DNA of 44,118 nt, taken from NCBI GenBank assembly GCA_003576845.1, contig QEVJ01000048.1, positions 1 to 44,118 of the forward strand. The letters run 5' to 3'. Below the pieces are notes generated by a model that saw only the letters and a list, made by a program, of their open reading frames with translations, was not told where the DNA came from and made no database searches. The stretch's first letter is position 1. Each line of letters starts with the position of its first letter. The stretch is from Planctomycetota bacterium (GTDB lineage: Bacteria > Planctomycetota > Planctomycetia > Pirellulales > PLA5). The translations under genes and the position numbers were made by a program. This document shows positions 15,509 through 33,700 of the stretch, piece after piece.

Positions 15509-18500
15509 ATGAAGTCACGGCGTCGCAAGCACTGCGCTTTGGCTATCGAACGGCTCGAACCGCGCGATTTACTCGCCGCCGCCGAACCGTTGTGGCGATA
15601 TCCGTTCGACGTTGCCTCGGCGCCGGCCGAGTTCACCGTGCCGGGCGGCACATGGCCACAGCCCGGCGGACTGGGATCCCCCGTTACGTTGACGTACAGC
15701 TTGAGCAATCTAACCGACGGCGGTCTTCCGGGCGGTCTTGCCGCGCCACAACTTCGAGCCGCCGTCGAGGAAGCCCTTGGTTTGTGGGCGGCGTACGCGC
15801 CGCTGTACTTCGTCGAGGTAGCCGACAGTGGCCCTGTGCCGGACGACATCGAGTACGCTCCGCAGGATCATCCGCAGCTTCGCATCGGCCATCATGCGAT
15901 CGACGGCGAGGCGTTCCCGGACGAACTCGCGCACGCCTACCTACCGCCCGACGCAGCGTTTGCCGACGGCCTGGCCGGCGACGTTCATTTCGACGACGGC
16001 AATGCGTGGTCCCTCGACCCGGATACGGCCGTCGACGTCCTCGAAGTTCTCGTCCACGAACTGGGCCACGCCCTCGGGCTGGGGCATGAAGAGATCGCAA
16101 CGGCGATCATGAACCCGTTCTATGCCGGCCGGTACGACGGCTTGGGAACGGCCTTTCTATTCGAGGACGATATCGCCGGCATCCGCAGCCTGTACGGCAG
16201 CGGCGTTGGCGCCGTTACGCCGGTCGTCGATATCGGCATCTTTGGCGCGGGAGTCGAAATCGCTTCGGGCGACACCATCGCGTCGACCGCCGACGGCACC
16301 TATTTCGCCACGGCGATTCTCGGCACGGCGGGCATCGAACATTACTTCACGATTACAAACCGCGGTCAAGGCACGCTCGAATTGACCGGCACGCCGGCCG
16401 TCCAACTTGTGGGGCCTGACGCGGGCGATTTCACGGTCGTCGCAGTCCCGGCGACGAGCCTTGCGGCACAGGGTAGCACGACGTTTTCGCTTCGATTCGT
16501 GCCCACGTCCGTCGGTTTGCGCACGGCCGCCGTGCGCATCGCAAGCAACGACGCCGATGAGAGCATCTATGAATTCGCGATCGCCGGGCGTGGCTTGTCG
16601 CCGCAACAGGAAATCGAAATCCTCGGTCGCGGGCAACCCATCGTCGCCGGCGACGCAACGCCATCGGCGGTCGACGGAACGGAATTCGGCTTCGTCAACG
16701 TCAACGGCGGGACGGCGACTCGAACGTTCACGATCGAGAATGCCGGCGCCTCGCGGTTATCGCTGCTGGGCGATCCCAGCGTGGCGCTGGTTGGACCTCA
16801 TGCCGCCGACTTCGCCATTGCGGCGATGCCGGCGGCGGAAATCCCGCGGGAAACGGCCTCCAGCTTCTCGATTCGATTCGATCCGACGGCGATTGGCCTG
16901 CGAACGGCGGTGGTCCGTGTCGCCAGCGACGATGCAGACGAAGACCCCTACGAGTTCACGGTCGCCGGAACCGGTTATGCCGCCAACGCGGAGATCGGCA
17001 TCTTCGGCAACGGTATCTCGATTGCCGACGGCGATGCGACGCCCGGCGTTCTCGACCACACCGCGTTCGGCGCGGCAAACGTCGCCGGCGCTCTGCTCGT
17101 GCGAACGTACACGATTACGAACACGGGCGTTGGGCCATTGCACTTGACCCACGATCCGCCGGTTGCATTGGCGGGATCACACGCCGGCGACTTTCGCGTC
17201 ATCAATCAGCCGGCGACGCCCGTGTTCTCGGGTGGCGCCACGACGTTTTCGATCGCATTCGATCCGTCGGCGGCAGGCACGCGCTCGGCGACCGTCGTCG
17301 TCGAGAACTCGGACGCAAACGAGAACCCGTTCGAGTTTGCCATTTCGGGCAACGGCTTCGCCGCGGCCGCGGAGATCGAAGTTCGGGGCGAAGGGCGGGT
17401 CATTCTCAGCGGCGATGATTCGCCTCAAGGCCTTGATGGCACGGACTTCGGCAATGCCGCCGTCGGTGCGCCGCCCGCGTCGCGAACGTTCGTCGTCGCA
17501 AATGTCGGTTCGGGCGCCCTGAATCTCATCGGCAGCCCGCGCGTGGCGATCACCGGCGAGAACGCCGCGGACTTTCGCGTCAGTTCGTTCCCGCCCGGTG
17601 CGGTGAATGTCGGCGGCACGGTTTCGTTTACGATCGAGTTCTCGCCGAGCGGCGGCGGACGACGAGCCGCCACCGTCAACGTGCCGAGCAACGACGACGA
17701 CGAGAACCCCTACGAGTTCGCCATCGTCGGATTCGGCGCGGCACCGCCCCACGTCGTCGGCGTAACCGTGGGCAGCACGGTCGGCGAACATGCTTTTCAC
17801 GAGTTAGAGGCGGGAACCGGCCGATTGCAGTGGCGACCGCTGCCTTGGGTGAATCTCGATCGCATTGAGGTTCGGTTCGATCAAGACGTCGTCTTGGCGG
17901 CCGGCGACCTGATGCTCGTCGACGGCGCTGGAGCGACGCTCAATTTCGCGCCTGACGGTTTCGACTACGATGGCGCGAGCCATACGGCTGCGTGGCGGTT
18001 CGAGGATGAGTTTGTTTCCTCTCGAATTACACTTCTGCTCAAGAGCTACGACGGAGTGCGGGGTGTCCGGAACGGCGTAGGGACTGCACTCGACGGCGAA
18101 TGGACTGAGCCGACCGCTTACGACGAGCAGACTTCCGATGTGTTTCCGTCAGGCGATGGGATTCCCGGCGGCGACTGTAGGCTAAGCTTTCGCGTCAATC
18201 CTGGCAACGTCGAGCAGGCGATCGTCGACAACGCGGATGAGTCGCTCGACATCAACTGGCTCGATCTGAGGGCCGTGCTGGACCGCCAGTTCCGCGCCGC
18301 CGGCGACGCCGCGTATTCGAAGTGGGCGGACCTCGACGGAAACGGCGCCATTAATGCCGTCGATGCCGTTTTCGCCAACAACTATCGAGACGCCAAGGTC
18401 TCCATAGCGGCGGCCGATGCGGCGATCGCCTCCGTATCCAACAGGGAGTCGTCGCTTCTTGTCGCCTTTCGCCAAAGATTGTCACGGCGGCCAAGCGTGC

Positions 18501-18844
18501 CGCAGCCTCTACCGGAAACAGATATGGTTACGCCAAGGAGTTATACGCTCGCTCGCCAAAGGCCTAAGCGCCAGCGAGCGGCAACGCAGGACCGCGCCGC
18601 TGCGCTTTTGCCAGCCATGCCAGAATTCCGACGTTTACGAAAGGCCCGAATGCCCGAAAGACCGAATGCCAGAGTTTCCGTGACAGGTGAGCGACCCGTG
18701 GGTAAGCCAACGAGCGCCGCTTCAAATTGGACTCGGAGCGCGATGGACCATCATCCAATGCACTTGCACGATCACACTTTCTGGGTCATCGGCACGGAAG
18801 GCGGCCGCATTCCCGAACAAGCTTGGATTCCGACCAACACTTAG
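15509..18844 (+). CDS. LEPR-XLL metzincin-like protease with choice-of-anchor D repeats, dockerin and foreign C-terminal tail
   Basis: The protein has 1,111 residues, and its N-terminal signature LAIERLEPRDLLAAA fits the family. Residues ~45-230 form a matrixin-like (M10-type) zinc metallopeptidase: HELGHALGLGH at 183-193 supplies the three His ligands and catalytic Glu, and the Met-turn is AIMNPF (Met201). Four tandem domains of about 125 residues follow (~240-367, 368-490, 493-617, 620-744), matching choice-of-anchor D/ASH-like Ig folds (xFTIxNxGxxxLxLxG, NDADExxYEFxxxGxG). Residues 747-870 are the beta domain shared with the protein at the left edge. A dockerin-like pair lies at ~910-970. 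After about residue 985 the sequence is arginine-rich filler, then from Met1079 an unmistakable piece of multicopper oxidase (separate entry). The original stop was probably lost by fusion to foreign DNA. No clear Shine-Dalgarno; it is probably co-transcribed with the 9306 gene. Confidence 0.85.
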   Translation: MKSRRRKHCALAIERLEPRDLLAAAEPLWRYPFDVASAPAEFTVPGGTWPQPGGLGSPVTLTYSLSNLTDGGLPGGLAAPQLRAAVEEALGLWAAYAPLYFVEVADSGPVPDDIEYAPQDHPQLRIGHHAIDGEAFPDELAHAYLPPDAAFADGLAGDVHFDDGNAWSLDPDTAVDVLEVLVHELGHALGLGHEEIATAIMNPFYAGRYDGLGTAFLFEDDIAGIRSLYGSGVGAVTPVVDIGIFGAGVEIASGDTIASTADGTYFATAILGTAGIEHYFTITNRGQGTLELTGTPAVQLVGPDAGDFTVVAVPATSLAAQGSTTFSLRFVPTSVGLRTAAVRIASNDADESIYEFAIAGRGLSPQQEIEILGRGQPIVAGDATPSAVDGTEFGFVNVNGGTATRTFTIENAGASRLSLLGDPSVALVGPHAADFAIAAMPAAEIPRETASSFSIRFDPTAIGLRTAVVRVASDDADEDPYEFTVAGTGYAANAEIGIFGNGISIADGDATPGVLDHTAFGAANVAGALLVRTYTITNTGVGPLHLTHDPPVALAGSHAGDFRVINQPATPVFSGGATTFSIAFDPSAAGTRSATVVVENSDANENPFEFAISGNGFAAAAEIEVRGEGRVILSGDDSPQGLDGTDFGNAAVGAPPASRTFVVANVGSGALNLIGSPRVAITGENAADFRVSSFPPGAVNVGGTVSFTIEFSPSGGGRRAATVNVPSNDDDENPYEFAIVGFGAAPPHVVGVTVGSTVGEHAFHELEAGTGRLQWRPLPWVNLDRIEVRFDQDVVLAAGDLMLVDGAGATLNFAPDGFDYDGASHTAAWRFEDEFVSSRITLLLKSYDGVRGVRNGVGTALDGEWTEPTAYDEQTSDVFPSGDGIPGGDCRLSFRVNPGNVEQAIVDNADESLDINWLDLRAVLDRQFRAAGDAAYSKWADLDGNGAINAVDAVFANNYRDAKVSIAAADAAIASVSNRESSLLVAFRQRLSRRPSVPQPLPETDMVTPRSYTLARQRPKRQRAATQDRAAALLPAMPEFRRLRKARMPERPNARVSVTGERPVGKPTSAASNWTRSAMDHHPMHLHDHTFWVIGTEGGRIPEQAWIPTNT
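18546..18580. repeat. inverted repeat in the tail of the protease gene
   Basis: Perfect 8-base arms CGCTCGCT (18546-18553) and AGCGAGCG (18573-18580) flank a 19-base loop. It sits in the non-conserved link between the dockerin and the multicopper oxidase remnant. The sequence resembles the short AGCGAGCG-type interspersed repeats I associate with planctomycete genomes, but only one copy is visible here, so that identification is a guess. Confidence 0.4.
18743..18841 (+). pseudogene. remnant of a multicopper oxidase C-terminal cupredoxin domain
   Basis: In frame with the protease gene, this segment reads HHPMHLHDHTFWVIGTEGG and then RIPEQAWIPTNT. HPMHLHxH is the copper-ligand motif of multicopper oxidases, and FWVxGTEGGRIPxxAWIPxNT is the usual continuation. 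The match stops at 18841, before the second motif (HCHxxxH) that every functional enzyme needs, and nothing upstream resembles the other cupredoxin domains. It is therefore a fragment of about 33 codons, presumably left by deletion of an oxidase gene that once headed the metal locus. Confidence 0.75.
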
Positions 18845-18856
18845 GATGGGAACCTG

Positions 18857-19497
18857 TCAAACGACGTCAGCCATGCCACATTTGCGTTTGCAGGCTGCCA
18901 GTGCAAGAGTTCCCAGAGCGGCCGCCACAAGGCCGATGGTCGACGGCTCGGGGACGACCGAAGTCGTATGATTTTGCTGGTAGGTCTCACCGAAACTGTG
19001 GGCAAGCATCGCCACGTCAGAACGATCGATGAATCCGCTTCCGTCAAAATCGCCGCGATCCCAATCCCCAGGTTCGCCGAGGGTCTGCGTGAGCGCGGCT
19101 AGATCACCGAGACCGATGTGGCCATTCAGGTCCAAGTCGCCCGCATGTCCGATGTGATGGTGGTGCATCCCATCGCTGTGGTGATGGTCTTCGTGATGAA
19201 TGCCGCCCGGTGAATGGTGGTGTTGGAATTGATGGTCGTGGTGCGGGTCCGGGTCGTGGAATAACGTGGTTGCGTGATGATGCGTGTCTTGGGGATCAAG
19301 GTGCGCAAAGTGATGATCCAAGATTGGATCGCCACTGCCGTCGTGGTGCGGGATCGGACGGTCGATTGGATGATGGACCGGATCGGTTGGCGAATGATGG
19401 TCGAGCGTATCGTGGAAGTTTGCGCCGCGGATCCTCGCGCCATTAGGGAAATGCCTAAAACCCACAGCGCCGTTCGGAAGCGAAGCGCACCTGGCAT
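18857..19497 (-). CDS. His-rich PEP-CTERM protein with dockerin repeats (one frameshift after the signal peptide)
   Basis: ATG 19497 follows AAAGGA at 8 bases and opens a signal peptide (RTALWVLGISLMARGSAA). Within about 20 bases of its end (near 19430-19445) the sense moves to another frame, which runs on without a stop to 18857; a gene caller would probably start at GTG 19465. That frame gives a region with 30 histidines in about 91 residues (HH, HHH and HHHH clusters mixed with Asp and Pro), a dockerin-like pair (DLDLNGHIGLGDL, DFDGSGFIDRSDV), then a PEP-CTERM anchor: VVPEPST, a hydrophobic helix and a basic end. PEP-CTERM proteins are sorted to the surface by exosortase. The position next to a metal-efflux locus suggests extracellular metal binding; this is inference. 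It is convergent with the protease gene (12-base gap) and divergent from the operon. Confidence 0.72.
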
Positions 19498-19660
19498 AAC
19501 ATTGTCCTTTCTCAAAACGACCCGAGCTTGCGGATGGTTGGGCGCCATCAGTTGACGCCCCCTTTGGGAGACGGTCAATCGCCGACGCATACCTTGCGGC
19601 CGAAAATCGAACAAATCTCGCCGAATCTTCGTTTTTGCATCATGCACCGGGGAGTTGCTC

Positions 19661-19688
19661 TTGATTTCGGCCTTCGCCAACCGATAAT
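19661..19688 (+). promoter_or_regulatory. candidate promoter of the metal-handling operon
   Basis: TTGATT (19661-19666) and GATAAT (19683-19688) are 16 bases apart. Start of transcription would be near 19695, 38 bases before ATG 19733. The site lies in the 235-base divergent gap between the His-rich PEP-CTERM gene and the + strand series. No clear operator dyad is visible. Confidence 0.4.
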
Positions 19689-19732
19689 TCCGTTACTGGT
19701 TAGCAGGTTCCGATACGGCACGCCGTGGACCA

Positions 19733-20248
19733 ATGGTGTTTCAAGCGACAACCTGGTTCGTTGCCTTCGCGACCCTTGTCGGGCCGGCGCTTTGCTGTTG
19801 CACGGCCACAAAACTTGCGTCGAACGTTTCCACGTTGTTTGGCGGTGGCGAAGTCCAGTGCCCATCGACTGGTTGCTGTCATCATCGCGCGGCTAGCCGC
19901 TCGTCAAGTTCGCACGGTTCGGCCTGCGGCCATCACCAGCATGAACCGAAGAGTTTGGCCGCGGCAGAGCTTGCTAAGAGAAAGGTTCCGGTCAAGCCAG
20001 GAAACCCGCCGCCGCGCGAGTGCCCGTGCAAGCAGCACCGTGCAGACGTCGCGGCGCTGCCCGCAACGGCCGATGCGGTGGCGGCTTGTTCGCTGGGGCA
20101 ATTCGCTTGGGTTGGGACGACGGCCGATCTCGGCGTCGTCTCCGAGAGTTCGCTAAATGGCGCCGGCGTTGCTGGCAATTGCCGCCCCGAGTCCGCTTGC
20201 TTAAGTGGCCGGGAGATACTGCGCGCACACTCGATTTTGCGCATCTGA
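19733..20248 (+). CDS. small secreted Cys/His-rich protein, first gene of the metal locus
   Basis: A 171-residue protein with a hydrophobic N-terminus (WFVAFATLVGPAL) running into CCC at residues ~21-23, so it is probably exported, possibly lipid-modified. The first 110 residues contain grouped ligands: CCC, a C..GCCHH cluster, ACGHHQH and CPCKQH, about 12 Cys and 8 His in all. The C-terminal 60 residues are bland. I do not recognise a named family, but short Cys/His-rich exported proteins at the head of planctomycete heavy-metal efflux loci fit this description. A metal sensor or buffer in the periplasm is plausible. The ribosome binding site is weak. A 194-base gap separates it from the next gene. 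Confidence 0.6.
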   Translation: MVFQATTWFVAFATLVGPALCCCTATKLASNVSTLFGGGEVQCPSTGCCHHRAASRSSSSHGSACGHHQHEPKSLAAAELAKRKVPVKPGNPPPRECPCKQHRADVAALPATADAVAACSLGQFAWVGTTADLGVVSESSLNGAGVAGNCRPESACLSGREILRAHSILRI

Positions 20249-20442: not shown

Positions 20443-21336
20443 ATGTCTCGCAAGTCCCTCGTGGCCGTCGCCGCTGGCGTCGGCATATTGGCTGCCGCAA
20501 TCGCCTTGGCTGGCTGCAACAACCAGCAGCCGGGGCACGTTACGGATTCTGCAAGCGGCACTCCCTCGACCGAACAGAGCGCCGCTTCGACTCACCGAAC
20601 TTCGACCGCAGAGAAGGACGTGACGGACGAACACGCGCACAAGCCGGGCGCCCATGGCGGGATCATCGTCTCACTGGGCCGCGACAGCTACCACGTCGAG
20701 GCGGTGTTCGAACAGGGTGGCTTGCTCCGGCTTCATGTGTTGGGAAGCGATGAAACGAAAGTCCAGGAAATCGATGCCCAGGACCTCTTGGGTTACATCA
20801 AAGCCAGCGACGCCAACGAAGCGATCGCCGTCGTCTTCAAGCCGCAGCCGCAACCGGGAGACACTGCCGGCAAGACGTCGGTCTTCGTCGGTCGGATTCC
20901 CGCCGACCTGGTCGGCAAGAATCTCGACGTCACGGTCCCCAGTGTCCGCATCGCCGGCGAGCGGTTTCGGCTCGGTTTCACGTCGACGCCGCAATCGCAC
21001 GGCGAAGACATCATGCCGGACAAGGTCGGCGATGACGAAGAGCGCGATCTGTACCTGAAACCGGGCGGGCTCTATACGGAAGCCGACATCAAGGCGAACG
21101 GCAACGCGACCGCATCGCAGAAATTCGCCGGCTTCAAGTCGTCGCACGACATGAAGCCCAAACCCGGCGACAAGATCTGCCCGGTCACGATGACCAAAGC
21201 CAATCCGAAATGTACTTGGGTCGTCGGTGGTAAGACGTACGAGTTCTGCTGTCCGCCCTGCGTGGACGAATTCGTCAAATTGGCCAAAGAGAATCCCAAC
21301 GACGTCAAGGATCCCGATGCCTACGTGAAACGGTAA
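20443..21336 (+). CDS. lipoprotein with His-rich segment and C-terminal YHS/TRASH-like Cys cluster
   Basis: 297 residues; AGGAG lies about 9 bases before ATG 20443. The signal peptide ends in the lipobox ALAGC (Cys25). After a Ser/Thr-rich linker comes DEHAHKPGAHGG (res ~65-77), a likely metal-binding patch at the start of a beta-rich domain of about 110 residues (res ~75-190) of unknown family. The C-terminal 55 residues contain CPVTMTKANPKC and YEFCCPPC, spaced like the zinc/copper-binding YHS or TRASH fold (ligands at ~res 243, 254, 265-269). This suggests a membrane-anchored periplasmic metal-binding protein feeding the efflux pumps. It is codirectional with the genes around it, 69 bases before the HMA gene. 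Confidence 0.75.
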   Translation: MSRKSLVAVAAGVGILAAAIALAGCNNQQPGHVTDSASGTPSTEQSAASTHRTSTAEKDVTDEHAHKPGAHGGIIVSLGRDSYHVEAVFEQGGLLRLHVLGSDETKVQEIDAQDLLGYIKASDANEAIAVVFKPQPQPGDTAGKTSVFVGRIPADLVGKNLDVTVPSVRIAGERFRLGFTSTPQSHGEDIMPDKVGDDEERDLYLKPGGLYTEADIKANGNATASQKFAGFKSSHDMKPKPGDKICPVTMTKANPKCTWVVGGKTYEFCCPPCVDEFVKLAKENPNDVKDPDAYVKR

Positions 21337-21405: not shown

Positions 21406-21744
21406 ATGCTACGCACGATGGTTGTTTCAACGATCGCGGCACTGGCGTTTGGTGCGCTGGGTGTCGTCAATTCCGCGCTGGCCGTCGAGAGCCGGACCAC
21501 CTCAATTACGATCGACGGAATGCATTGCGCCGGCTGCGCCAAAAAAATCGCGACGCGCCTGCGGGCGGTCGCCGGCGTGGACGATGCCCAAGTGAGCGCC
21601 GAAACGGGAACTGCCGCAGTGACTCCCAAGGACAAGGCGAACGTCTCGCCGCGATCGTTGTGGGAGTCGATCGAAAAGGCCGGATACACGCCGACGAAGC
21701 TTGTCGGACCCGGCGGTACATTCACGAAGAAACCCGACCGCTAA
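21406..21744 (+). CDS. periplasmic heavy-metal-associated (HMA) protein
   Basis: 112 residues with GGAGA before ATG 21406. A signal peptide (STIAALAFGALGVVNSALA) precedes a single HMA domain of about 65 residues: TTSITIDGMHCAGCAKKI with the CxxC pair in GMHCAGC at ~res 38-44, then VDDAQVSAETGTAAVTP and the final strand SLWESIEKAGYTP. The ferredoxin-like HMA fold binds Cu(I), Hg(II) or similar soft metals through the two Cys. With an export signal it would act as a periplasmic carrier, like MerP or the CusF-type shuttles in role though not in fold. A stem-loop spans its stop codon. It most likely delivers metal to one of the downstream RND systems. Confidence 0.88.
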   Translation: MLRTMVVSTIAALAFGALGVVNSALAVESRTTSITIDGMHCAGCAKKIATRLRAVAGVDDAQVSAETGTAAVTPKDKANVSPRSLWESIEKAGYTPTKLVGPGGTFTKKPDR

Positions 21745-22123: not shown

Positions 22124-24376
22124 ATGACACGCTTCTTCTCGCTCGCCGCAATTGGCTGCGTTTTCGCGATTGCGTTCTACGGCGGCCGCGCGAAAGCCCA
22201 CGAAGGGCACGCGGCGCTGCCGACCAAAGGTACTCAAGTCGATTTGGAGCAAGGCACGGTCTTTCTCAGCCCGGAGGCTCGCGACGCGCTCGCGGTCAAG
22301 ACTGCCGAGGCCGAGTTGCGACCGCTGCAAAAGAGCGTCTTGGCCTATGCGACGCTGGAGTCGCCGTGGACGAAGCACGCGTTTGCCACCAGCCGCGTCG
22401 GCGGACGCATCGAGCGGCTGTTCGTCAAGCCAGGCGAATACGTCACGGCGGGCGATCCATTGGCGGAGGTCCGGAGCCTGGAGTTGGAGAATCTCCAACT
22501 CGAGCTGCTCGATGCACAGAACGCGTGGTCGCTATCGCAAAAGCTGGCCACCCAGAGCGAGCGTTTGGCGCGCGAAGGCGCCGTGCGAAGCCGCGACGCT
22601 TTGGAAGCGGAGGCAAAACGCCGCGAAACCGAAAACGCCGTTAACGTGGCACGACTCAAACTCGCGAGTCTCGGATGGTCGGAGGCGGAGTTGAATCAAT
22701 TTGTCGAACAAGAGACGCCGCGGGAAAGCCGTCCCCTCGTCGTTACCAGCCCGGTCGGCGGAGTCGTCATTCACTCAGACCTGACGGTCGGCAAGGTGGT
22801 CGAGGCGAACGAACATCTATTCGAAGTGGTCGATTTATCGAGCGTGTGGGTCCGCCTCAGCGTCCTGGAAAAAGATTTGTTTGAGGTCGCCGCAGGACAG
22901 GCGGTGGAACTGAATCTGTCTGCGTTTCCCGGCAAGGCATTTCCGTGCCGAGTGCAGGTGAAGAGTCAAGCGCTCGATCCCGACACCCGCTTGGGAACGG
23001 CTTGGGCCGAGTTGTCCAACCCAACCGATAGTGAACCGAGGTTCCTGCCCGGCATGACGGGTCAGGCTCGCATCGTCGTGTTTGCGCCGGGAAAACGAAC
23101 TGCCGTGCCCTCATCCGCCGTCGTCGGCGAAGGGGCGGAGCGCTTCGTGCTCGTCGAAGACGAGGCCACCGCCAAAGGCAGCTCCTTTCGCAAGCGCAAC
23201 GTGGTCGTGGAAACGGTCAACGGCGGCCTGGCCTTCCTGCGGGCGGGAAAAGTCTACCCTGGCGACCAGGTGTTGACGCAAGGAGCGCACATCCTGGCGT
23301 CGTACTTCGCCGCCGGCGTCCTGAGGCCGAGCGAAGAAGCGAAGCAGAGCATCGGCCTGCGGATCGAAACCGTGCAACCGCGCCGCGTCGATTCGATCGC
23401 GGAATTAGACGCCGTCGTCGATGTCCCTCCCGATCGTCGGGCCGTGTTGTCGTCGCAGTTTGCTGGCACTTTGGAGCGGATTCACGTGGATCGGGCGCAA
23501 GCGGTCAAAAAAGGAGACCTAATTGCCGAGGTGGCGAGCCTGGAGTTCCAAAACCTGCAACTGGAGCTGCTCCAGGCCGATCAGGAGGCGAAGCTGCTTT
23601 TAGACCAGCGCAAGTTGATCGGCGGCTTGACCGACGATGCCAACCCCATCGTGGCGCGAAGGCGCCTTTGGGAACTGGAGGCCGCGAACTCCGCGGCCGT
23701 TCATCGCCGCGAAACGGCCCTCCGCAAACTTCGCTCATCCGGACTGAACGATCGCCAGCTCGACGGCTTGCTGCGCGACCAGCGACTGATCGCGGCGCTG
23801 CCGCTCCGCTCGCCGATCGACGGCGCCCTCGTGCATTTCGAGAAATCGCTGGGCCAGGCGGTCAAGCCGGACGAGGCGCTGTTCGAGATTCACGATTTAT
23901 CGCGGGTCTGGGTGAAAGCTTTTCTCTCCGAACAACAAGCGTCGCAGTTTCACTTGAAATCCGCATCGCCGCAAACCGCGCGGATTCGTTTGGCCGCAGA
24001 CGCGAATGCCACGGTGACGGGAAAGGTCGTTCGCAGCGATCGGTTGTTGGACCCAAAGACGCGCGCGCTGTCGATTTGGGTCGAGTTGGATGCTCCGCCG
24101 TCGACGCCTTGGCCTCACAAGATGCTGGCAAGCGTGACGCTGAGCCGCGGTCCGGCGGCAACGGTCCTGGCTGTGCCGCGCCAAGCGATCGCTTGGGATG
24201 GTGCGCGGGCTTTCGTGTTTGTTCAACGACGGGACGGGGTACTGGAACGCAGGACCATCGACGCGGGGAGAATGGACGATCGTTTCGTGGAAGTGATCAA
24301 GGGCTTGCGGGCATCGGAATCAATTGCCGTCAGCGGCGCGGCCGACCTTCAGACGGCCTACGCGACTTTGCGCTAA
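22124..24376 (+). CDS. tandem-duplicated RND efflux periplasmic adaptor (CzcB/CusB-like, two copies in one chain)
   Basis: 750 residues, about twice the usual length. A signal peptide (res 1-25) is followed by AHEGHA. Copy 1 (res ~50-405) has a lipoyl/barrel-sandwich half (GRIERLFVKPGEYVTAGDPL), a helical hairpin (LELENLQLELLDAQ to ~res 180), the returning half (VTSPVGGVVIHSDLTVGKVV), a beta-barrel (VWVRLSVLEKDLFEV) and a membrane-proximal domain. Copy 2 (res ~410-750) repeats the plan: GTLERIHVDRAQAVKKGDL, SLEFQNLQLELLQAD, LRSPIDGALVHFEKSLGQAV, VWVKAFLSEQQ. Normal adaptors work as hexamers, so three of these chains could form the ring. The pump gene starts 18 bases downstream. The copies are diverged, so the duplication is old. 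Confidence 0.85.
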   Translation: MTRFFSLAAIGCVFAIAFYGGRAKAHEGHAALPTKGTQVDLEQGTVFLSPEARDALAVKTAEAELRPLQKSVLAYATLESPWTKHAFATSRVGGRIERLFVKPGEYVTAGDPLAEVRSLELENLQLELLDAQNAWSLSQKLATQSERLAREGAVRSRDALEAEAKRRETENAVNVARLKLASLGWSEAELNQFVEQETPRESRPLVVTSPVGGVVIHSDLTVGKVVEANEHLFEVVDLSSVWVRLSVLEKDLFEVAAGQAVELNLSAFPGKAFPCRVQVKSQALDPDTRLGTAWAELSNPTDSEPRFLPGMTGQARIVVFAPGKRTAVPSSAVVGEGAERFVLVEDEATAKGSSFRKRNVVVETVNGGLAFLRAGKVYPGDQVLTQGAHILASYFAAGVLRPSEEAKQSIGLRIETVQPRRVDSIAELDAVVDVPPDRRAVLSSQFAGTLERIHVDRAQAVKKGDLIAEVASLEFQNLQLELLQADQEAKLLLDQRKLIGGLTDDANPIVARRRLWELEAANSAAVHRRETALRKLRSSGLNDRQLDGLLRDQRLIAALPLRSPIDGALVHFEKSLGQAVKPDEALFEIHDLSRVWVKAFLSEQQASQFHLKSASPQTARIRLAADANATVTGKVVRSDRLLDPKTRALSIWVELDAPPSTPWPHKMLASVTLSRGPAATVLAVPRQAIAWDGARAFVFVQRRDGVLERRTIDAGRMDDRFVEVIKGLRASESIAVSGAADLQTAYATLR

Positions 24377-24394: not shown

Positions 24395-27300
24395 ATGCTG
24401 AACCGCATCATCGCATTCTCGCTGAACAATCGCCTGGTCGTGTTGGCGGCCGCCGCCACGATGATCACGCTGGGCGGTTATCAGTTGACGCAAATGCCGG
24501 TGGACGTCTTCCCCGATCTCAATCGCCCGACCGTCGCCGTGCTCACCGAAGCGCCCGGCATGGCGCCCGAAGAAGTCGAAACGCTCGTAACGCGCCCCAT
24601 TGAGTACCTTCTCAACGGGGCTACCGGCGTGCAGCGTGTGCGTTCTGCCTCCGCTATCGGACTGTCGATTGTATGGGTGGAGTTCGAGTGGGGCACGGAC
24701 ATTTACAAGGACCGCCAGGTCGTTGCCGAGAAGCTGCAATTGGCCAGCGAGCGGCTGCCCCAGGACGTCAACCCGACGATGGCGCCCATCTCATCGATCA
24801 TGGGCGAAATCATGCTGCTGGGACTGCGTTCGACCACCCCGCTTGGGACACCGCAAGCGCAGTCCGAACAGGCCATGCAGCTACGCACGCTGGCCGAGTT
24901 CACGCTTCGCAACCGGCTCCTGGCCGTCGACGGCGTCTCGCAGGTCACGGTCATGGGCGGCACGCTCAAACAGTACCAGGTCATCACGTCGCCCGAGCGT
25001 CTTGCAGCCCAGAACGTGTCGCTACAGCAGCTTGCGGAAGCTGCCGAAAAGGCAAATGTCATCGCCGGCGGCGGCGTCATGGAGCGAGGAGCGCGCGAAA
25101 CGCTCATTCGCATCAGCGGAAAAAGCCTGACCCTTGAGGATATCGAGACCACGCCCGTCGTATGGCGCGAGCCGCGACCCGTCGTGATCCGCGACGTGGC
25201 GGAGGTTCGCTTTGGCGGCCCGGTTCGACGAGGCGATGGCGGCGTGCGAATCAAGGATGGCGACGCGGTGGTCGGCGGCCCCGCCGTCATCATGACGGTG
25301 CAAAAGCAACCGAATGCGAACACGTTGGTTCTCGATCCGAAGATCGAAAGCGTGCTCGCGGAATTGCAGCAAGAGCTTCCGAACGACGTCGTCATCGACC
25401 GGCAGATTTTCAAGCAGGCGGACTTCATCGAGGCCGCGATCGCCAACGTCGAGGAGGCGATTCGGGACGGCGTCGTGTGGGTGTTCTTGATCTTGTTTAT
25501 CTTCCTTTGGAACTTTCGCACAAGCGCCATCACGCTGACGGCAATTCCGTTGTCGCTCTTGATTACCGCCCTCGTGTTTCACTGCTTCGGCGTGACGATC
25601 AACACGATGACGCTCGGCGGCATCGCCGTTGCGATTGGCGAACTTACCGACGACGCGATCGTCGATATCGAGAACATCTATCGCCGCCTTCGCGAGAACC
25701 GCCAATCCGCCAATCCGCGGCCGGCTCTGAAAGTCGTGTTCATGGCTTCCAGCGAAGTGCGGAACTCGATCGTCTATGCGACACTGATCGTGTGTCTGGT
25801 GGTGCTGCCCTTGTTCGCGATGAGCGGCCTTGAGGGCCGCATGTTCGCCCCGCTGGGCCTGGCCTACATGGTCTCGTTGCTGGCGTCGCTTGCCGTGTCG
25901 TTGACCGTCACGCCCGTGCTGGCCTCGCTGCTGCTGTCGCGTGCCCGGTTCATGGAGCGCCGGCAAGACCCGCTCGTTTTGCGCTGGCTGAAGAAAGTCG
26001 ACACGCACGTTTTGCGGTTCGCTTTGCGGCATCCGTGGCCGATCCTGGTCGGCACCATGATCCTCGCGTTTTCGTCAAAACTGGTCGTCTTTTGGATGGG
26101 ATCGGAGTTTCTCCCGCCGTTCAACGAAGGAACGCTCACGATCAATGTCCAAACCGAACCGGGAACGAGTCTCGCCGAAAGTCAACGCATTGCCGAGCGC
26201 GCCGAGAGTTTACTGCTCGGCGTGCCGGAGGTATTGACCGTATCGCGGCGGACGGGCCGCGCCGAGTTGGACGAGCACGCCGAGGGCGTCAACTCGTCCG
26301 AGATCGACGTCCGACTGCAAGCGCATCAGACTTCCCGCCCCGGCTTGCACAACGCCATCCTGCGGGCGATTCCTGGCATGTATTCGTTCGGAGCGGACGT
26401 CGCTGGCCGTCCAAAGCAGCAAGTGCTCGCGGACATTCGGGACCGCATTACCAGCATTCCGAACGTCAAGATCAACATCGGCCAGCCGATTTCCCATCGG
26501 CTCGACCACATCATGTCCGGCGTGCGGGCCCAAATCGCCGTGAAGGTGTTCGGCAGCGATCTTCGAGAGATACGCAACACCGCGCAGGACATTCAATCGG
26601 CGATCGGCGACATTCCGGGCGTCGTCGATCTTCAAGTCGAGCCGCAAGTCGAAATCTCGCAACTTCGGTTGAAGGTCAAGCGGCGCGAGGCGGCCCGCTA
26701 CGGCCTGGCGCCGGGCGACGTCGCCAAGATGCTCGAAACGGCTTACAAGGGGCTCGTCGTATCGGAAATCCTCGACGAAGATCGGCGATTCGAGCTTGTC
26801 GTCTGGTACGACGAGAAATCTCGCAGCGATCCGGCCACCATTAACGAAACGATTCTCGACACTCCGTCTGGCCGCAAAGTTGCGCTCGGGCAAGTCGCCG
26901 AGGTGCTCGACACGAGCGGACCCAATACGCTCAATCGCGAGAATGTCCAGCGACGGATCGTCGTTTCGGCCAACGTACACGGGCGCGACTTGGGCGGAGT
27001 CGTCGCCGATATTCAGACGAAAGTGCAACCGATCGACGAGCGTTTGCGTCAACTAGGAGCCGACTACCGCATCGAGCTCGGCGGTCAGTTCGAAGCGCAA
27101 CAGCAGGCAAACGCGAGATTGCTTCTCTTGGGAGCGCTATCGGTCATCGGTGTGTTTTTGTTGCTTTGGCGATGCCTCGACTCGTGGGTCGCGGCGATGC
27201 AAGTCTTGCTCGTCAATATCCCGTTGGCCGCCTTGGGTTCGGTCGCCATGCTCCTCGCGATCAACCGGCCGACGTGGGACGTGTTGCAGGCGGCGCCGCT

Positions 27301-27916
27301 ATGGGATTGGCCGCGCGTCTGGGCCCAGACGACCACGCTTTCCGTAGCCCATTGGGTCGGCTTCATCACGCTCATCGGCATCGTCAGCCGCAACGGCATT
27401 ATGATGATCTCGCACTACATCCACCTGATGAAGTACGAGGGCGAGAAGTTCGACGAGCACATGATCATTCGCGGCAGCTTGGAACGTCTCGCCCCGGTCC
27501 TGATGACGGCGTTCGTGGCCATCATGGGGCTGATCCCGCTGGCTCTGGGCGCCGGCCAAACCGGCAAGGAGATTCTTCATCCTCTGGCGATCGTCGTCAT
27601 CGGTGGATTGCTCGATTCGACCTTGATGGACCAATTCGTCACGCCGGCCGTTTTCTTCCTGTTCGGCAAACTGTTCGGCCCGCAAATCTACGTGCGGCGG
27701 CCCGCGGGCGGACACGAGAGCGACGTCCTCGAACGCCAGGCCGACGTGCTCTTTCCGGATTTGACCGAACGGCTCGTCGCAGTACCAGACTCCTCGTCAC
27801 CGCCGGGCAACGCGCCGCTGCCCGACACCTTGGTAGCGGAGGGAAACGGTTCCGCGTCCCTTGCGGGGGGTGTCGCCGAAACAGTTCCATCTCTTTCCAA
27901 TGGAGAAAAGCCATGA
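24395..27916 (+). CDS. heavy-metal RND efflux pump, CzcA/CusA family, without the CusA Met triad
   Basis: 1,173 residues, full length for an HME-RND inner-membrane proton antiporter. Family marks: TM1 followed by DVFPDLNRPTVAVLTEAPG, porter domains, the TM4 segment GGIAVAIGELTDDAIVDIEN (res ~407-426, with the Asp aligned to the proton-relay Asp405 of CusA), a second half from EFLPPFNEG (res ~570), and late TM helices (VGFITLIGIVSRNGIMM). Aligned by eye to E. coli CusA, the three copper-binding Met positions (573, 623, 672) fall on Leu (EFLPP), Ser (VNSSEID) and His (RLDHIMSG), so Cu(I)/Ag(I) is less certain and a divalent substrate is possible. The partner is probably the tandem adaptor just upstream. 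Its stop overlaps the next start by ATGA. Confidence 0.9.
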   Translation: MLNRIIAFSLNNRLVVLAAAATMITLGGYQLTQMPVDVFPDLNRPTVAVLTEAPGMAPEEVETLVTRPIEYLLNGATGVQRVRSASAIGLSIVWVEFEWGTDIYKDRQVVAEKLQLASERLPQDVNPTMAPISSIMGEIMLLGLRSTTPLGTPQAQSEQAMQLRTLAEFTLRNRLLAVDGVSQVTVMGGTLKQYQVITSPERLAAQNVSLQQLAEAAEKANVIAGGGVMERGARETLIRISGKSLTLEDIETTPVVWREPRPVVIRDVAEVRFGGPVRRGDGGVRIKDGDAVVGGPAVIMTVQKQPNANTLVLDPKIESVLAELQQELPNDVVIDRQIFKQADFIEAAIANVEEAIRDGVVWVFLILFIFLWNFRTSAITLTAIPLSLLITALVFHCFGVTINTMTLGGIAVAIGELTDDAIVDIENIYRRLRENRQSANPRPALKVVFMASSEVRNSIVYATLIVCLVVLPLFAMSGLEGRMFAPLGLAYMVSLLASLAVSLTVTPVLASLLLSRARFMERRQDPLVLRWLKKVDTHVLRFALRHPWPILVGTMILAFSSKLVVFWMGSEFLPPFNEGTLTINVQTEPGTSLAESQRIAERAESLLLGVPEVLTVSRRTGRAELDEHAEGVNSSEIDVRLQAHQTSRPGLHNAILRAIPGMYSFGADVAGRPKQQVLADIRDRITSIPNVKINIGQPISHRLDHIMSGVRAQIAVKVFGSDLREIRNTAQDIQSAIGDIPGVVDLQVEPQVEISQLRLKVKRREAARYGLAPGDVAKMLETAYKGLVVSEILDEDRRFELVVWYDEKSRSDPATINETILDTPSGRKVALGQVAEVLDTSGPNTLNRENVQRRIVVSANVHGRDLGGVVADIQTKVQPIDERLRQLGADYRIELGGQFEAQQQANARLLLLGALSVIGVFLLLWRCLDSWVAAMQVLLVNIPLAALGSVAMLLAINRPTWDVLQAAPLWDWPRVWAQTTTLSVAHWVGFITLIGIVSRNGIMMISHYIHLMKYEGEKFDEHMIIRGSLERLAPVLMTAFVAIMGLIPLALGAGQTGKEILHPLAIVVIGGLLDSTLMDQFVTPAVFFLFGKLFGPQIYVRRPAGGHESDVLERQADVLFPDLTERLVAVPDSSSPPGNAPLPDTLVAEGNGSASLAGGVAETVPSLSNGEKP

Positions 27917-28449
27917 TTGCTCGCGCACGTCCATTGATCTTCGTCGCTGGGGTTGCGGCATTCGCGCTTCCGCCGCTCGCGGGCTGCTCGAATCAGCCCG
28001 CCGACACTAAGAAGGGTGAAGAGCAGCACGACGACCACGCCCACGACGCACACGGCAAGGATGGCGACGGCGACGGGCATCACCACGAGGGGCACGACCA
28101 CGCGGCGCTTACCGAGCAGGATGTAAAGCTGCCGGAATCCTTTGCGGACGGAGTGGCGCGGCTCGCGAAGTTGCACGAGAAGATCGATCACTTGATCGAG
28201 CACGACGAGCTTGAGGACGTGCACGGCGCCGCGGAAGAAATGGCGATCGTGGCGCGCAAAATGAAGGAATTGGCGGCAACGGACGTTGCCGACGACCGAC
28301 GAGCGGATGCCGGTCGCTTATGCAACGAAATAGCCGGCTACTTCCGGCCAATCGACGAGGCCGCCGACGCCGGCAAGAAGGACGACACGATCGCCATTTA
28401 CAGGCAAATGACGACGGCGATCGGCAAGCTGGACGCCTTGACCAAGTAA
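27913..28449 (+). CDS. His/Asp-rich lipoprotein, translationally coupled to the RND gene
   Basis: 178 residues. The start shares ATGA (27913-27916) with the stop of the pump gene, and GGAG lies about 9 bases upstream. The lipobox is PLAGC (Cys25). The mature N-terminus is a metal-binding string of His, Asp, Glu and Lys (HDDHAHDAHGKDGDGDG then HHHEGHDH; about 10 His within 35 residues). The remaining ~115 residues are helical (LAKLHEKIDHLIEHDEL, AAEEMAIVARKMKELA), reminiscent of small all-helical periplasmic metal-binding proteins such as the CnrX/ZraP group, although I see no exact match. Coupled translation with the pump suggests stoichiometric supply of a metal buffer or sensor. Confidence 0.78.
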   Translation: MIARARPLIFVAGVAAFALPPLAGCSNQPADTKKGEEQHDDHAHDAHGKDGDGDGHHHEGHDHAALTEQDVKLPESFADGVARLAKLHEKIDHLIEHDELEDVHGAAEEMAIVARKMKELAATDVADDRRADAGRLCNEIAGYFRPIDEAADAGKKDDTIAIYRQMTTAIGKLDALTK

Positions 28450-28472
28450 TCCTTGCGATTGGCAGGTACGTC

Positions 28473-29132
28473 ATGGACTCCTTACACGAGTTCTCCGCGC
28501 GCGTCGCGGCCCGGCTTGCCGCGACGCCCCGACCGAACGCGTCCGCGGGCGAATCCGCACGCTACATGGCGCAATTCGAGCCTAAGTATCGGCAGTTCGA
28601 ACAACTTGCCAGCCGGCTCTTGACCGAGATCGTTCAGCCGCGTCTGGAGGTCGTTGCGCACTTCTTTCCCGGCGCCCGCGTACGACCGGCCGTGCAAGAA
28701 AACCGTTGCGCGGCGTGGTTCGGTTTCTGCGAACGATTTCCGGCCACGGCTAAGGTCGAGTTGACCATCGACGCCGACCAGGCGCTCGATAACGTCGTGC
28801 TGCGATGCGAAGTGACGATCGTGCCGTCGTTTGTGAAATACGATGCCCACGACAAGCTAGTGCTGCCGCTGGATCAGGTGGATGAACCTCGGACCGCCGC
28901 CTGGGTCGAGGAGCGCCTATTGGCATTTCTCGACACATATCTGCAACTCGATCGCGGAGACGAGGATTCCTCAGAGGTCACGGCGACAGACCCGGTGTGC
29001 GGCATGCAGGTCAACGCGCCCGACGCCCTACAGGCCGACCATCGCGGCCATGCCTATTACTTTTGTTCCGCGGATTGTCGCCAGCGGTTCATGGCGGCGC
29101 CTGCGCGGTATATTCATTTGGACGTGGAGTAA
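28473..29132 (+). CDS. YHS-domain protein with an unrecognised N-terminal domain
   Basis: 219 residues from ATG 28473 (GGCAGG about 7 bases before it). No signal peptide is visible, so it may be cytoplasmic. The first 165 residues are a mixed alpha/beta domain I cannot name (ARYMAQFEPKYRQFEQLAS, ATAKVELTIDADQALDNVV, a C..FGFC pair at ~res 82-88). Residues ~173-214 are a YHS domain: DPVCGMQV, HAYYFCSADCRQRF, spaced as in P-type copper ATPases and related metal proteins, with Cys ligands for Cu or Zn. It lies 23 bases after the His-rich lipoprotein and before the second adaptor. A cytoplasmic metal receiver or chaperone is a fair inference. Confidence 0.75.
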   Translation: MDSLHEFSARVAARLAATPRPNASAGESARYMAQFEPKYRQFEQLASRLLTEIVQPRLEVVAHFFPGARVRPAVQENRCAAWFGFCERFPATAKVELTIDADQALDNVVLRCEVTIVPSFVKYDAHDKLVLPLDQVDEPRTAAWVEERLLAFLDTYLQLDRGDEDSSEVTATDPVCGMQVNAPDALQADHRGHAYYFCSADCRQRFMAAPARYIHLDVE

Positions 29133-29186: not shown

Positions 29187-30707
29187 ATGCAAGGTGTTCT
29201 CGTGCGCATTCCACAAACCTGGCTCATTTGGATCGGAGTAGCGGTTGTGGTCGTCGCCGCGGTCGCGGGCCTAGTCGCGTTTTTTGGCCCGCCCGCCGAC
29301 GAGAACGCCGACCAAAGCGACGTGTGGACCTGTTCCATGCACCCGCAAGTTCGGCTGCGGGAGCCGGGGGATTGTCCGATCTGCGGCATGAAGCTGATTC
29401 CTTTGTCGGAGTTGACCGACGAGCAGGTTCGCGTCGCGCATCAGGCGCGGATCGTTACCGAGCCGGTGGCGTTCCGCGAGTTGTTCAAGGAAGTGCGCAC
29501 GGTCGGCAAGCTCGATTTCAACGAACGCCGCGTGGCAAACATCGCGTCGCGCGTCGCGGGGCGCGTCGATCGCGTGTTCGTCGATTTCACGGGGATCGAG
29601 GTCAAGAAAGGCGATCATTTGGTTTCGATTTACAGTCCCCAACTCGTCGTCGCCCAGACCGAATTGTTTCGCGCGCTCGAACGTTTTGGGCAGGCCACGC
29701 CCGAGCGCCAACCGCAAGACCGCTCGTTTCTCGACGCCGCCCGGACGAAACTGCAGCTTCTGGGCATCCTCGACGAGCAGATTGCCGAAATGGAGCGTTC
29801 GCGGAAAGAGCTCACGCACTTGACGATCTACGCTCCGATCGGCGGCACGGTGATCGAGAAGGACATTCGCGAAGGGCAGTACGTCGAAGAAGGCGACTCG
29901 CTCTATCGGATTGCCGATCTCGATCCGATCTGGCTTTATCTCGACGTGTATGAATACGACCTCGGTTGGATTCGATACGGTCAGCCCGTCGACGTGCGGT
30001 TGGAAGCGTATCCCGGCGAAGTGTTTCGCGGCACGGTCGTGTTCATCGATCCGTTCTTGGACGACAAGACGCGGACCGTGCGGGTGCGGGTGAATCTCAA
30101 GAACTCGGACCGGCGGCTCAAGCCGGCAATGTACGCGTCGGCCACGATACGCGTGCCGCTCGAGCCGGACGGAACGCCGCGCCCGACGGGCTTGGAAGGC
30201 AAGTACATTTGCCCGATGCACCCGGAAGTGGTCCAAGAAAAGCCCGGCAAATGCCCGATATGCGAGATGCCGCTGGAACCAGTCCCGGCGCCGCGGTTGC
30301 AGTTGCCCCCGCGCGGTAAGCGCGTGCCGGACGCGACCGGCGCCGACGCGAAGGGCAAGGTGCTCTCTGTGCCCGTGTCCGCCGTGCTCGACACCGGTCG
30401 CCGCCGAGTCGTCTATCGCAAGACGAAGGACGGCGCCTTCGAGTTGGCCGAAGTGACGCTCGGTCCGCGCGCCGACGCCCAGCGCGACGGCGAACTCATC
30501 GGATACTACCCGGTGTTTTCCGGGTTGAGCGACGGGGACCGGGTCGTCGTGCGAGGGGCGTTCCTGCTCGATAGCCAACGGCAAATCGAAGGGATGCCAA
30601 GCCTGTTATACGCGGAAGGCCGCGGGCCGGCTAACTTGCACGGCGATCACGGCGGCCACGCGCCCACCGAACCGGCAAGCCCGATGCCGGCCGAGCACAA
30701 ACATTAA
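29187..30707 (+). CDS. cusB: CusB-like RND periplasmic adaptor with two heavy-metal-binding motifs
   Basis: 506 residues. The N-terminus is a membrane anchor (WLIWIGVAVVVVAAVAGLVAFF). A heavy-metal-binding domain follows at ~res 47-70 (WTCSMHPQVRLREPGDCPICGM), then the usual barrel-sandwich, hairpin (DEQIAEMERSRKELTHL), lipoyl return (IYAPIGGTVIEKDIREGQYV) and beta-barrel (WLYLDVYEYDLGWI). A second such domain is inserted at ~res 340-366 (YICPMHPEVVQEKPGKCPIC) with EM instead of the usual GM. The C-terminus is His-rich (HGDHGGHAP...HKH). The ATG at 29187 lacks a ribosome binding site; GTG 29202 has AAGGTG 6 bases upstream and could be the real start, five codons shorter. It pairs with the CusA-like pump 14 bases downstream. 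Confidence 0.88.
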   Translation: MQGVLVRIPQTWLIWIGVAVVVVAAVAGLVAFFGPPADENADQSDVWTCSMHPQVRLREPGDCPICGMKLIPLSELTDEQVRVAHQARIVTEPVAFRELFKEVRTVGKLDFNERRVANIASRVAGRVDRVFVDFTGIEVKKGDHLVSIYSPQLVVAQTELFRALERFGQATPERQPQDRSFLDAARTKLQLLGILDEQIAEMERSRKELTHLTIYAPIGGTVIEKDIREGQYVEEGDSLYRIADLDPIWLYLDVYEYDLGWIRYGQPVDVRLEAYPGEVFRGTVVFIDPFLDDKTRTVRVRVNLKNSDRRLKPAMYASATIRVPLEPDGTPRPTGLEGKYICPMHPEVVQEKPGKCPICEMPLEPVPAPRLQLPPRGKRVPDATGADAKGKVLSVPVSAVLDTGRRRVVYRKTKDGAFELAEVTLGPRADAQRDGELIGYYPVFSGLSDGDRVVVRGAFLLDSQRQIEGMPSLLYAEGRGPANLHGDHGGHAPTEPASPMPAEHKH

Positions 30708-30721
30708 CGGGAGGCACGGCG

Positions 30722-33700
30722 ATGGTTGCCAGTCTCATCCGGTGGTGCCTCGACAATCAATTCCTCGTGGCGCTGGCGACGGTGGCGCTGCTGGTGGCCG
30801 GCTACTATTGCCTCGGCAACACGCCCGTCGACGCGATTCCCGACATCGGCGAGAAACAGGTCATCGTGTTCGCCGATTGGCCGGGCCGCTCGCCGCAGGA
30901 CGTCGAAGACCAGGTGACGTATCCGCTGACCGTCAGCCTGCAAGGCACGCCGGGTGTGAAGACGATTCGCTCGGCGTCGGGCTTCGGGTTCTCGATGATC
31001 TTCGTGATCTTCAAGGACGAGATCGACTACTACTGGGCGAGGTCGCGAGTCTTGGAGCGGATGAACGTGGCGACGACGAAGCTGCCGCAGAACGTCGTGC
31101 CCGTGCTCGGTCCGGACGCGACGGCGTTGGGCCAGGTTTATTGGTACACGCTCGAAGCGGAAGGAGCCGACCTCGCTCAGCTTCGCTCGCTGCAAGACTG
31201 GTACGTCCGCTATCAGTTGCAAGCGGTCGAGGGCGTGTCCGAAGTGGCCAGCGTCGGCGGATTCGTCAAGCAATACCAGGTCGACGTCCATCCCGACAAG
31301 CTGCGGGCCCACCGCGTCGCGCTCGACGAGGTCTACGAAGCGGTCCACAACAGCAACATCGACGTGGGCGCAAAGGTCGTGGAGAAGAACGGGCTGGAGT
31401 TCTTCGTCCGCGGCGTGGGGTTCATCAAGAGCGTGCGCGACGTCGAGAACATCGTGATTCGTCAGGAAGGCGGAACGCCAATCTTCGTCAAGAACGTGGC
31501 GACGGTGCAGCTTGGGCCCGACTTTCGCCGCGGACTGCTCGACAAGCATGGCCGCGAGGCGGTGGGCGGCGTGGTGGTGATGCGATACGGCGAAAACCCG
31601 CTGTCCGTCATCGACCGCCTCAAGGCGAAAATCGCCGAGATCGAGCCGGGCCTGCGGATCACGCTCGCAGACGGCGAAGTGGTGCCCGTGCGGATCGAAT
31701 CGTTCTACGATCGGACGCAGATCGTTCACGAAACGATGGACACGCTCAAAGAGGCGCTCACCGAGGAAGCGCTTGTGGCCGGCGCCATCGTCATCATCTT
31801 TCTGCTGCACCTGCGCAGTTCGCTGTCGATTCTGCCGACGTTGCCGCTTTCCGTGGCGATGAGCTTCATCGTTATGTACATGCTCGGCGTCGACAGCAAC
31901 ATCATGTCGCTCGCGGGCCTGGCAATCGCCATCGGCGACGTGGCCGACATGGGCATCATCATGACGGAGAACATCTATCGCCGGCTGGCCGCCGAGCCGC
32001 ACCGTCCGCATAAGGAGGTCGTCTACGAAGCGGCCGCCGAAGTCGGACCCGCCATCTTGACGGCCGTGTCGAATACGATCGTGTCGTTCATCCCCGTGTT
32101 TCTGCTGGCGGATCAGGAGGGCAAGCTGTTCAAACCGCTGGCGTACACGAAGACATTCGCCATTGCCGCGTCGGTCATCTTGGCGCTTACGCTCGTGCCC
32201 GTGCTGAGCTATCACTTGCTCAAGCCGACGCGGTTGTCGAGGCTTACGTCGCTTTTGTTAGGCATTGCCACGGGAGTCGCCGCCGCGTTTGCCGCCCATT
32301 TCCTGTTGATGTGGGGCTTCGAGCGCGAAACACACTATAGCGGCTGGCCGACGTCGTTCGCGATCGGCATCATGGTCGCCGCGGCGGTCTATCGCATGGG
32401 ACGCGAACGGCTCTTGCCGCTGGAAAGCAACCTCGTCGCCCGCGGCATCGCGGCGGTTTATCGCCCGACGCTCTCGTGGGTGCTTGCTCACAAGGCATCC
32501 TTCCTGACGATTCCGGTGGCGCTTACTTTGTTGGGCATCACGATTTGGCAAGGCTTCGAGCGGATCGCGTCGCCGATCGCGTCGGCGTCTCGCAGCGTTG
32601 GCCTCGATGTCACGGCGACGGGGGCCTGGCAGCGGCTGGCCGCGACGTTCCCCGGCATCGGCCGCGAGTTCATGCCGCCGCTCGACGAAGGATCGCTCCT
32701 GTACATGCCATCGCTGTTGCCCTCGGCGTCGCTCAGCGAGGTGCAAGAAGTCATCGCCCGGCAGGACGAGGCCATCGCCCAAGTGCCGGAAGTGGCGAGC
32801 GTCGTCGGCAAGGCGGGGCGCGCGGAGTCGGCGCTCGATCCCGCGCCGATCGGCATGGTCGAGACGATTATCCTGCTCAAACCGGAAGACGAGTGGCGGA
32901 TGGTCGACGACGGCAAGGGCGGCGAGCGGCGGATCACCAAGAGCGAGATCCTGGCCGAGCTTCAAGCGAAGACGGCCATTCCCGGCGTGTTGCCCACGTG
33001 GCTCCAGCCGATCCAGACGCGGATCGTCATGCTGCAAACCGGTTTTCGCGCCATGATGGGCGTCAAAGTGTTCGGCAGCGACGTCAAGGAAATCGAACGC
33101 ATCGGCCTGCAAATGGAGCAGATTCTCCGCAAGGTACCCGGCGCCACGGACGTCGTGGCCGATCGCATCGTGGGCAAGCCATACATCCAATACGAAATCG
33201 ACCGCGAAGCGATGGCCCGCTACGGCGTCAACATTCGCGACGTGCAGGACGTGATCGAGATCGGCATCGGCGGCGAGAACCTGACGATGTCGGTCGAAGG
33301 CCGCGAGCGTTATCCGATCCGCGTGCGGTATCTTCGCGAGTTGCGCGAGCGATTCGACGATCTGGAGCGCGTCCTCGTCCCGACCTCAGCCGGCGCGCAC
33401 GTGCCGATCGGCCAGCTTGCGCGAATTACCTACACGATCGGCCCGCAGGAACTCAAGAGCGAGCAGGGTCTGCTCGTGGGCTACGTGACGCTGAACACGC
33501 GCGATCGCGATGAGATCAGCGTCGTCGAAGAGGCCGAGGCCTTGCTTCAAGCCGAAAAGCAGCGCAGCGACGAGTTGATCGCCGCCGGCAGGCCCGAGGA
33601 AGCGACGCTCGTCGTGCCGCCCGGCTATTACTGGAAATGGTCGGGCCAGTTCGAGAGCCAGCAGCGCGCCACCGCTCGTCTGTCGATCGTCGTGCCGCTC

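Follow-up and report, generated by a model that had tools for sequence, protein, structure and literature searches.

A histidine-rich PEP-CTERM protein beside heavy-metal efflux genes in two planctomycete genomes: a candidate extracellular metal buffer

To our knowledge, most exosortase substrates have no known function. Histidine-rich surface proteins that bind zinc and are genetically linked to metal transport are familiar from streptococci, in which the polyhistidine triad proteins (PhtD) carry HxxHxH triads and are tied to zinc uptake. In the literature on histidine-rich PEP-CTERM proteins the match is ZepA, presented in the passages of PMC10957091 drawn on here as a folded protein with a conserved H-X2-9-H-F/Y-H site that is linked to Zur and supplies zinc; homologues are there delimited by at least 35% identity and at least 75% coverage of the mature protein. 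Inside the cell envelope, SilE is described in PMC5008109 as a periplasmic ‘molecular sponge’ for silver and copper, which is disordered, relies on His and Met and is encoded with the Cus-type pump of sil operons. According to passages of PMC7726332, PEP-CTERM proteins of Geobacter are raised under cobalt stress and extracellular immobilisation has been suggested, so that exosortase substrates have been connected with metal stress before. Here, we describe a histidine-rich PEP-CTERM protein encoded in a 44,118-nucleotide stretch of a Planctomycetota genome (assembly GCA_003576845.1, contig QEVJ01000048.1; hereafter the window), which a first-pass annotation had read as a surface metal trap.

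The gene lies on the minus strand, where an open reading frame (ORF) from a GTG to a stop (18857–19465, 202 aa, frame B) contains a body of 91 residues (19145–19417) with 30 histidines, 14 aspartates and 10 prolines, which makes the annotated count of 30 histidines in about 91 residues exact. Against an assumed background of 2.2% histidine, the binomial probability of this density is approximately 5e-27. The body continues in frame into a dockerin type I-like domain (18998–19144, minus strand; aa 108–156 of the GTG ORF) and a PEP-CTERM sorting signal (18881–18955, minus strand) composed of VPEPST, a hydrophobic stretch and a basic end. The sorting signal scores above the curated cut-offs of both PF07589 (24.3 vs 20.7 bits) and TIGR02595 (21.3 vs 16), and the dockerin domain reaches 20.3 bits with the Dockerin_1 profile, just below the Pfam cut-off of 22.9; one dockerin-type domain was found where a pair had been proposed. 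As a comparison set, 30 PEP-CTERM loci were fetched from the window genome and a sister genome, and 25 of them yielded an ORF with a short P.P[S/T] tail (unconvincing in L104, L115 and L117). The densest stretch of the window protein has 23 histidines in 60 residues, as against at most 6 in 60 among these 25 ORFs. A repeat scan of the gene found no tandem DNA repeat underlying the histidine run. An AlphaFold2 model, built from a two-sequence alignment, is uninformative (mean pLDDT 38.6), and a motif scan at the locus gave 1 promoter-like site with 0.5 expected and 2 terminator-like sites with 1.8 expected. Exosortase (PF09721) is matched above cut-off twice in the window genome and three times in the sister genome, and PEP-CTERM matches are abundant in the two genomes (80 and 83). 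We conclude that the window gene is that of a real and unusual protein.

The comparison within the genus and family comprises two genomes, the window's own (G000) and that of a same-genus relative (G001, the sister genome), which encodes the same protein with 56% identity (E = 4.5e-61; 65% over the body, locus L021). In the relative, a 214-aa protein carries all of its parts in one frame: a signal peptide (MIGRINDARHARPIMCFLAIAVLANRVHG, assigned by composition), a body with 34 histidines in 92 residues, a dockerin domain of 25.2 bits, which is above the cut-off, and a PEP-CTERM signal of 25.9 bits. Cysteine is absent from both bodies, and methionine occurs once or twice.

Histidine is kept in the relative at 29 of the 30 positions that have it in the window, and 13 of these 29 conserved residues use the other codon (CAC vs CAT). 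In a nucleotide alignment built without reference to codons, the differences within the body number 41, 14 and 10 at codon positions 3, 1 and 2, respectively (chi-square P = 2e-6); dS is saturated (NG86 returns no value) and dN/dS is therefore not quoted. An alternative is that the true product is the Thr/Ile/Arg-rich frame that runs on from the signal peptide, of which the histidine frame would be a shadow. That frame is indeed continuous with the ATG and the signal peptide, but conservation and the third-position excess track the histidine frame, stops interrupt the matching frame of the relative where the body begins, and the dockerin domain and PEP-CTERM signal would be lost. We rejected it, on conservation, third-position excess and the stops in the relative, as scarcely credible. 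The richness in Thr and Ile arises because the CAC and CAT codons are read one base over, which gives ACx and ATx, that is, Thr and Ile without stops. By this comparison, the histidine frame is the conserved frame.

The first-pass annotation had the protein joined in frame, which holds for the body, the dockerin domain and the PEP-CTERM signal but not for the export signal, given that the latter starts in another frame, at an ATG at 19497. The span 18857–19497 is 641 bases, which is no multiple of three. The sole plausible signal peptide of the window gene, MPGALRFRTALWVLGISLMARGSAAQ (19420–19497, minus strand, frame A), is probable from hydropathy and composition, with a best 11-residue hydropathy of 2.14 versus 0.93 and -0.37 in the other frames, and its ATG is preceded by a purine-rich AGAAAGGA. 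Its frame differs by one base from that of the histidine body; the GTG start of the body ORF falls inside the signal-peptide region, and an export signal is absent from that ORF's own frame. A one-base change from frame A to frame B within approximately 19405–19425 (minus strand) would be needed to join the two. With signal peptide and trap in different frames, the sequenced window copy would not be sorted. Given this one-base offset and the intact copy in the relative, the gene in the window is either frameshift-damaged or mis-assembled.

The case for a pseudogene, in which a single-base change cut the signal peptide off from the body, leaving the window species without an exported trap and the working form to relatives alone, falls just short of an even chance in our judgement. 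It draws on the frame difference across the 641-base span, on a decayed multicopper-oxidase scrap that abuts the 3′ end of the gene and from which it follows that the spot has been rearranged, and on the absence of a second copy from the window genome, in which the next-best matches cover the dockerin/PEP-CTERM part alone. However, the body has no further lesion, and the window genome is a draft of 289 contigs in which an assembly error is possible; the long genes nearby in the window are intact, meaning that errors are not widespread, and this tips the balance slightly towards a real lesion. Such a pseudogene is compatible with a metal-buffer function of the family. A programmed -1 frameshift, perhaps metal-controlled, could also bring the signal peptide into frame with the body in the window species, and one -1 step would suffice. 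This is disfavoured because no canonical X XXY YYZ slippery heptamer in the right phase was seen on inspection of the interval by eye, and the gene of the relative needs no shift; we consider it very improbable. Whatever its origin, the break is a warning to annotation pipelines, which could predict the protein minus its signal peptide and then misclassify it.

In the window, the histidine-rich gene diverges from a plus-strand CzcBA/CusBA cluster, in agreement with the position that had been annotated: an intergenic region of 235 bp (19498–19732) separates it from the next plus-strand gene, which starts at 19733. That gene (19733–20248) encodes an exported-looking Cys/His-rich protein of 171 aa without a family match, for which a search run without a positive control found no match in 5 other genomes. 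Farther along the plus strand are a lipoprotein-like protein with a weak C-terminal TRASH/YHS-like CC motif (20443–21336; profile scores below cut-offs), a heavy-metal-associated (HMA) chaperone-like protein (21406–21744) and an RND periplasmic adaptor with two CzcB-type units fused in one 750-aa chain (22124–24376), the latter two with profile matches, and a CusA/CzcA-family RND pump (24395–27916; TIGR00914 above cut-off). The cluster continues with a YHS-domain protein (28320–29132), a CusB-like adaptor with two HMBD heavy-metal-binding domains (29187–30707), a second, CusA-like RND pump (ACR_tran; 30722–34270) and a BNR/sialidase-fold-like protein with a CxCC motif (34286–35386), which has 30% identity (E = 4e-30) to the BNR neighbour in the relative. 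A pattern for the fourth-helix motif of the pumps matched none of four proteins and supports no claim on their metal class.

Two further features of the window touch on this neighbourhood. A predicted histidine-rich lipoprotein, HDDHAHDAHGKDGDGDGHHHEGHDH (27913–28449, plus strand; 178 aa, read by eye), with an ATG that overlaps the stop codon of the first pump gene, is a possible second metal sponge in the cluster; it forms the C-terminal 178 residues of the ORF 27166–28449, for which as a whole no Pfam match was found. On the other side of the gene, the multicopper oxidase scrap is a C-terminal remnant (HPMHLHDHTFW...; 18737–18886, plus strand) that reaches into the 3′ end of the histidine-rich gene and is fused in frame to the end of an M10 metalloprotease ORF (15509–18844). 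It is the sole PF07731 match in the window genome, and the sister genome has none.

In the relative, the gene lies inside an operon that runs from sigma factor and zf-HC2 genes through CusB, a CusA-type pump and a P1B ATPase to the histidine-rich gene, which is co-directional with the P-type ATPase and 140 nt behind it, and to a BNR protein immediately downstream. CusB carries HMBD and DUF3347 domains, and the ATPase has YHS and HMBD domains together with the motifs CPC, Nx6YNx4P and Mx2SSx2V, which we take to be the signature of Cu+/Ag+ transporters of type P1B-1. Another CusA-type pump is encoded farther along this contig, together with a TRASH-like protein and an efflux protein of the outer membrane. 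The CusA-type pump upstream of the ATPase appears as two consecutive ORFs (L023:9418–13578, minus strand), possibly a split gene or an assembly break. BNR-like CxCC proteins stand at the end of the metal cluster in each genome (window 34286–35386, plus strand; L023:4918–6063, minus strand).

The link to metal genes thus holds in two settings of differing arrangement, divergent in the window and inside an operon in the relative, and the gene has kept its association with metal genes despite a change of relative position. Two genomes of one genus are nevertheless thin evidence, and common ancestry could account for both. The idea of a surface histidine sponge had been made to depend on the histidine frame being the conserved one in relatives and on a link of such relatives to metal genes. 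It survives on both counts: the sister genome keeps the histidine frame and closes the Thr/Ile frame by stops, and the one clear relative lies in a copper-type efflux operon. The idea is strengthened on frame and metal link, with exosortases present in both genomes, and is weakened by the out-of-frame export signal of the window copy.

We think it probable, from the sequences compared here, that the family is an exosortase-sorted extracellular buffer, Sec-exported and with an approximately 90-residue His/Asp/Pro middle, with copper as its most likely metal and other histidine-binding ions as possible ones. The protein would be exported via Sec, an exosortase of the EpsH type would trim the PEP-CTERM tail, and the mature protein would be retained at the surface or in the matrix. 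There the body, helped by aspartate, could bind multiple metal ions outside the cytoplasm and soak up metal that is pushed out by the CzcBA/CusBA pumps or arrives from outside. We infer metal binding, the surface location and the identity of the metal, for which copper is favoured because of the copper-type operon in the relative. Given a body without cysteine and with one or two methionines, Cu2+, Zn2+ or Ni2+ would suit the ligands equally well. Cu+ sites often use Cys and Met.

Compared by description, SilE appears to be the best working analogy for the protein, although we know of no SilE with a PEP-CTERM signal or a dockerin domain. Both would be small secreted histidine-containing sponges whose genes accompany those of RND pumps and a P-type ATPase, but SilE, as portrayed in PMC5008109, is periplasmic and has His and Met motifs, whereas the window body is nearly free of methionine and would act outside the cell or at its surface. 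No SilE-type family appeared among the NCBIfam or Pfam matches, in libraries that may not contain such a model. Streptococcal PhtD proteins have in common with the present protein that they are surface-located, rich in histidine and linked to metals, and differ in being Gram-positive and of unrelated architecture. The Geobacter proteins are likewise exosortase substrates tied to metal stress, but the main text of PMC7726332 does not use the wording ‘histidine-rich’, and its passages drawn on here show no linkage to efflux operons.

Two other functions were weighed against the buffer. The protein might be a metal-acquisition exoprotein that captures scarce zinc (or nickel) outside the cell and passes it to an uptake receptor. 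Such a role is precedented by ZepA, a zinc-handling exoprotein with a Sec signal and a PEP-CTERM tail and with homologues in the PVC superphylum, and ZepA as described in PMC10957091 resembles the present protein in sorting, a histidine-based metal-handling role, superphylum and metal-gene neighbours, yet the present protein is set apart by its low-complexity His/Asp/Pro body, its dockerin domain and its efflux neighbours. The cysteine-free, histidine-rich body suits Zn2+, but the zinc-site pattern H-X2-9-H-[FY]-H is absent from the bodies in the window and the relative, the gene has efflux and detoxification functions encoded next to it in each genome, and neither an uptake gene nor a FUR-type regulator was found among the genes searched. 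The sorting resembles that of ZepA, but the neighbours speak for efflux and not for uptake, and we regard acquisition as unlikely. We rate equally low the prospect that the protein is a matrix or adhesion component with metals as cross-links and the metal genes as incidental neighbours. The many PEP-CTERM proteins of both genomes are in keeping with such a role, but comparable histidine richness occurs in none of those parsed, and metal genes flank the gene in two different arrangements. An extracellular buffer remains our preferred reading.

The protein appears to be rare. The histidine body was found in 2 of 396 genomes of the order (the window's own and its sister), in 1 of 392 genomes of the phylum (the window's own) and at one locus in the genome_contigs collection, and BLAST, with a low-complexity filter that may hide histidine runs, gave no plasmid match. 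Absence elsewhere is weakly informative, because low-complexity sequence evolves fast and search filters penalise it. A loose search (E up to 2) produced matches in 89 of the 396 genomes of the order, the window's own and its sister counted; of 28 weak loci (L057–L084), three ORFs passed a filter of at least 13 histidines in 60 residues, none with PEP-CTERM or dockerin motifs. The pattern HHH shortly before a dockerin-like motif occurred in 8 of 246 order genomes (10 matches), and the two matches judged relevant by eye both belong to the relative, namely the histidine-rich gene and a 445-aa PEP-CTERM ORF (L094), at whose locus no ORF exceeded a filter of 14 histidines per 60 residues. The other histidine-rich-looking match (L091) looks, by eye, like an antisense frame. 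In the class, a generic histidine-run pattern matched 66 of 397 genomes and the 30 loci scanned had no PEP-CTERM signal in their histidine-rich ORFs, a weak negative given that the pattern misses the genes of both the window and the relative. The samples of order, class and phylum thus gave no further example of a general link between histidine-rich PEP-CTERM proteins and metal genes, and we found no description of this protein in the literature on PEP-CTERM, histidine-rich, copper-efflux and planctomycete dockerin topics.

More tentatively, and as a view that we hold to be rather more doubtful than likely, the protein may represent a previously undescribed class, an exosortase-sorted surface metal sponge in the copper/heavy-metal efflux regulon of these planctomycetes. 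The pumps would expel the metal and a histidine matrix at the surface would block its return, completing the efflux route outside the cell as SilE buffers the periplasm. A PEP-CTERM protein whose body is one-third histidine, common to two species and found beside efflux genes in two arrangements, offers a concrete candidate function, extracellular metal buffering, for one exosortase substrate. If true, this would extend the idea of the metal sponge from the periplasm to the cell exterior.
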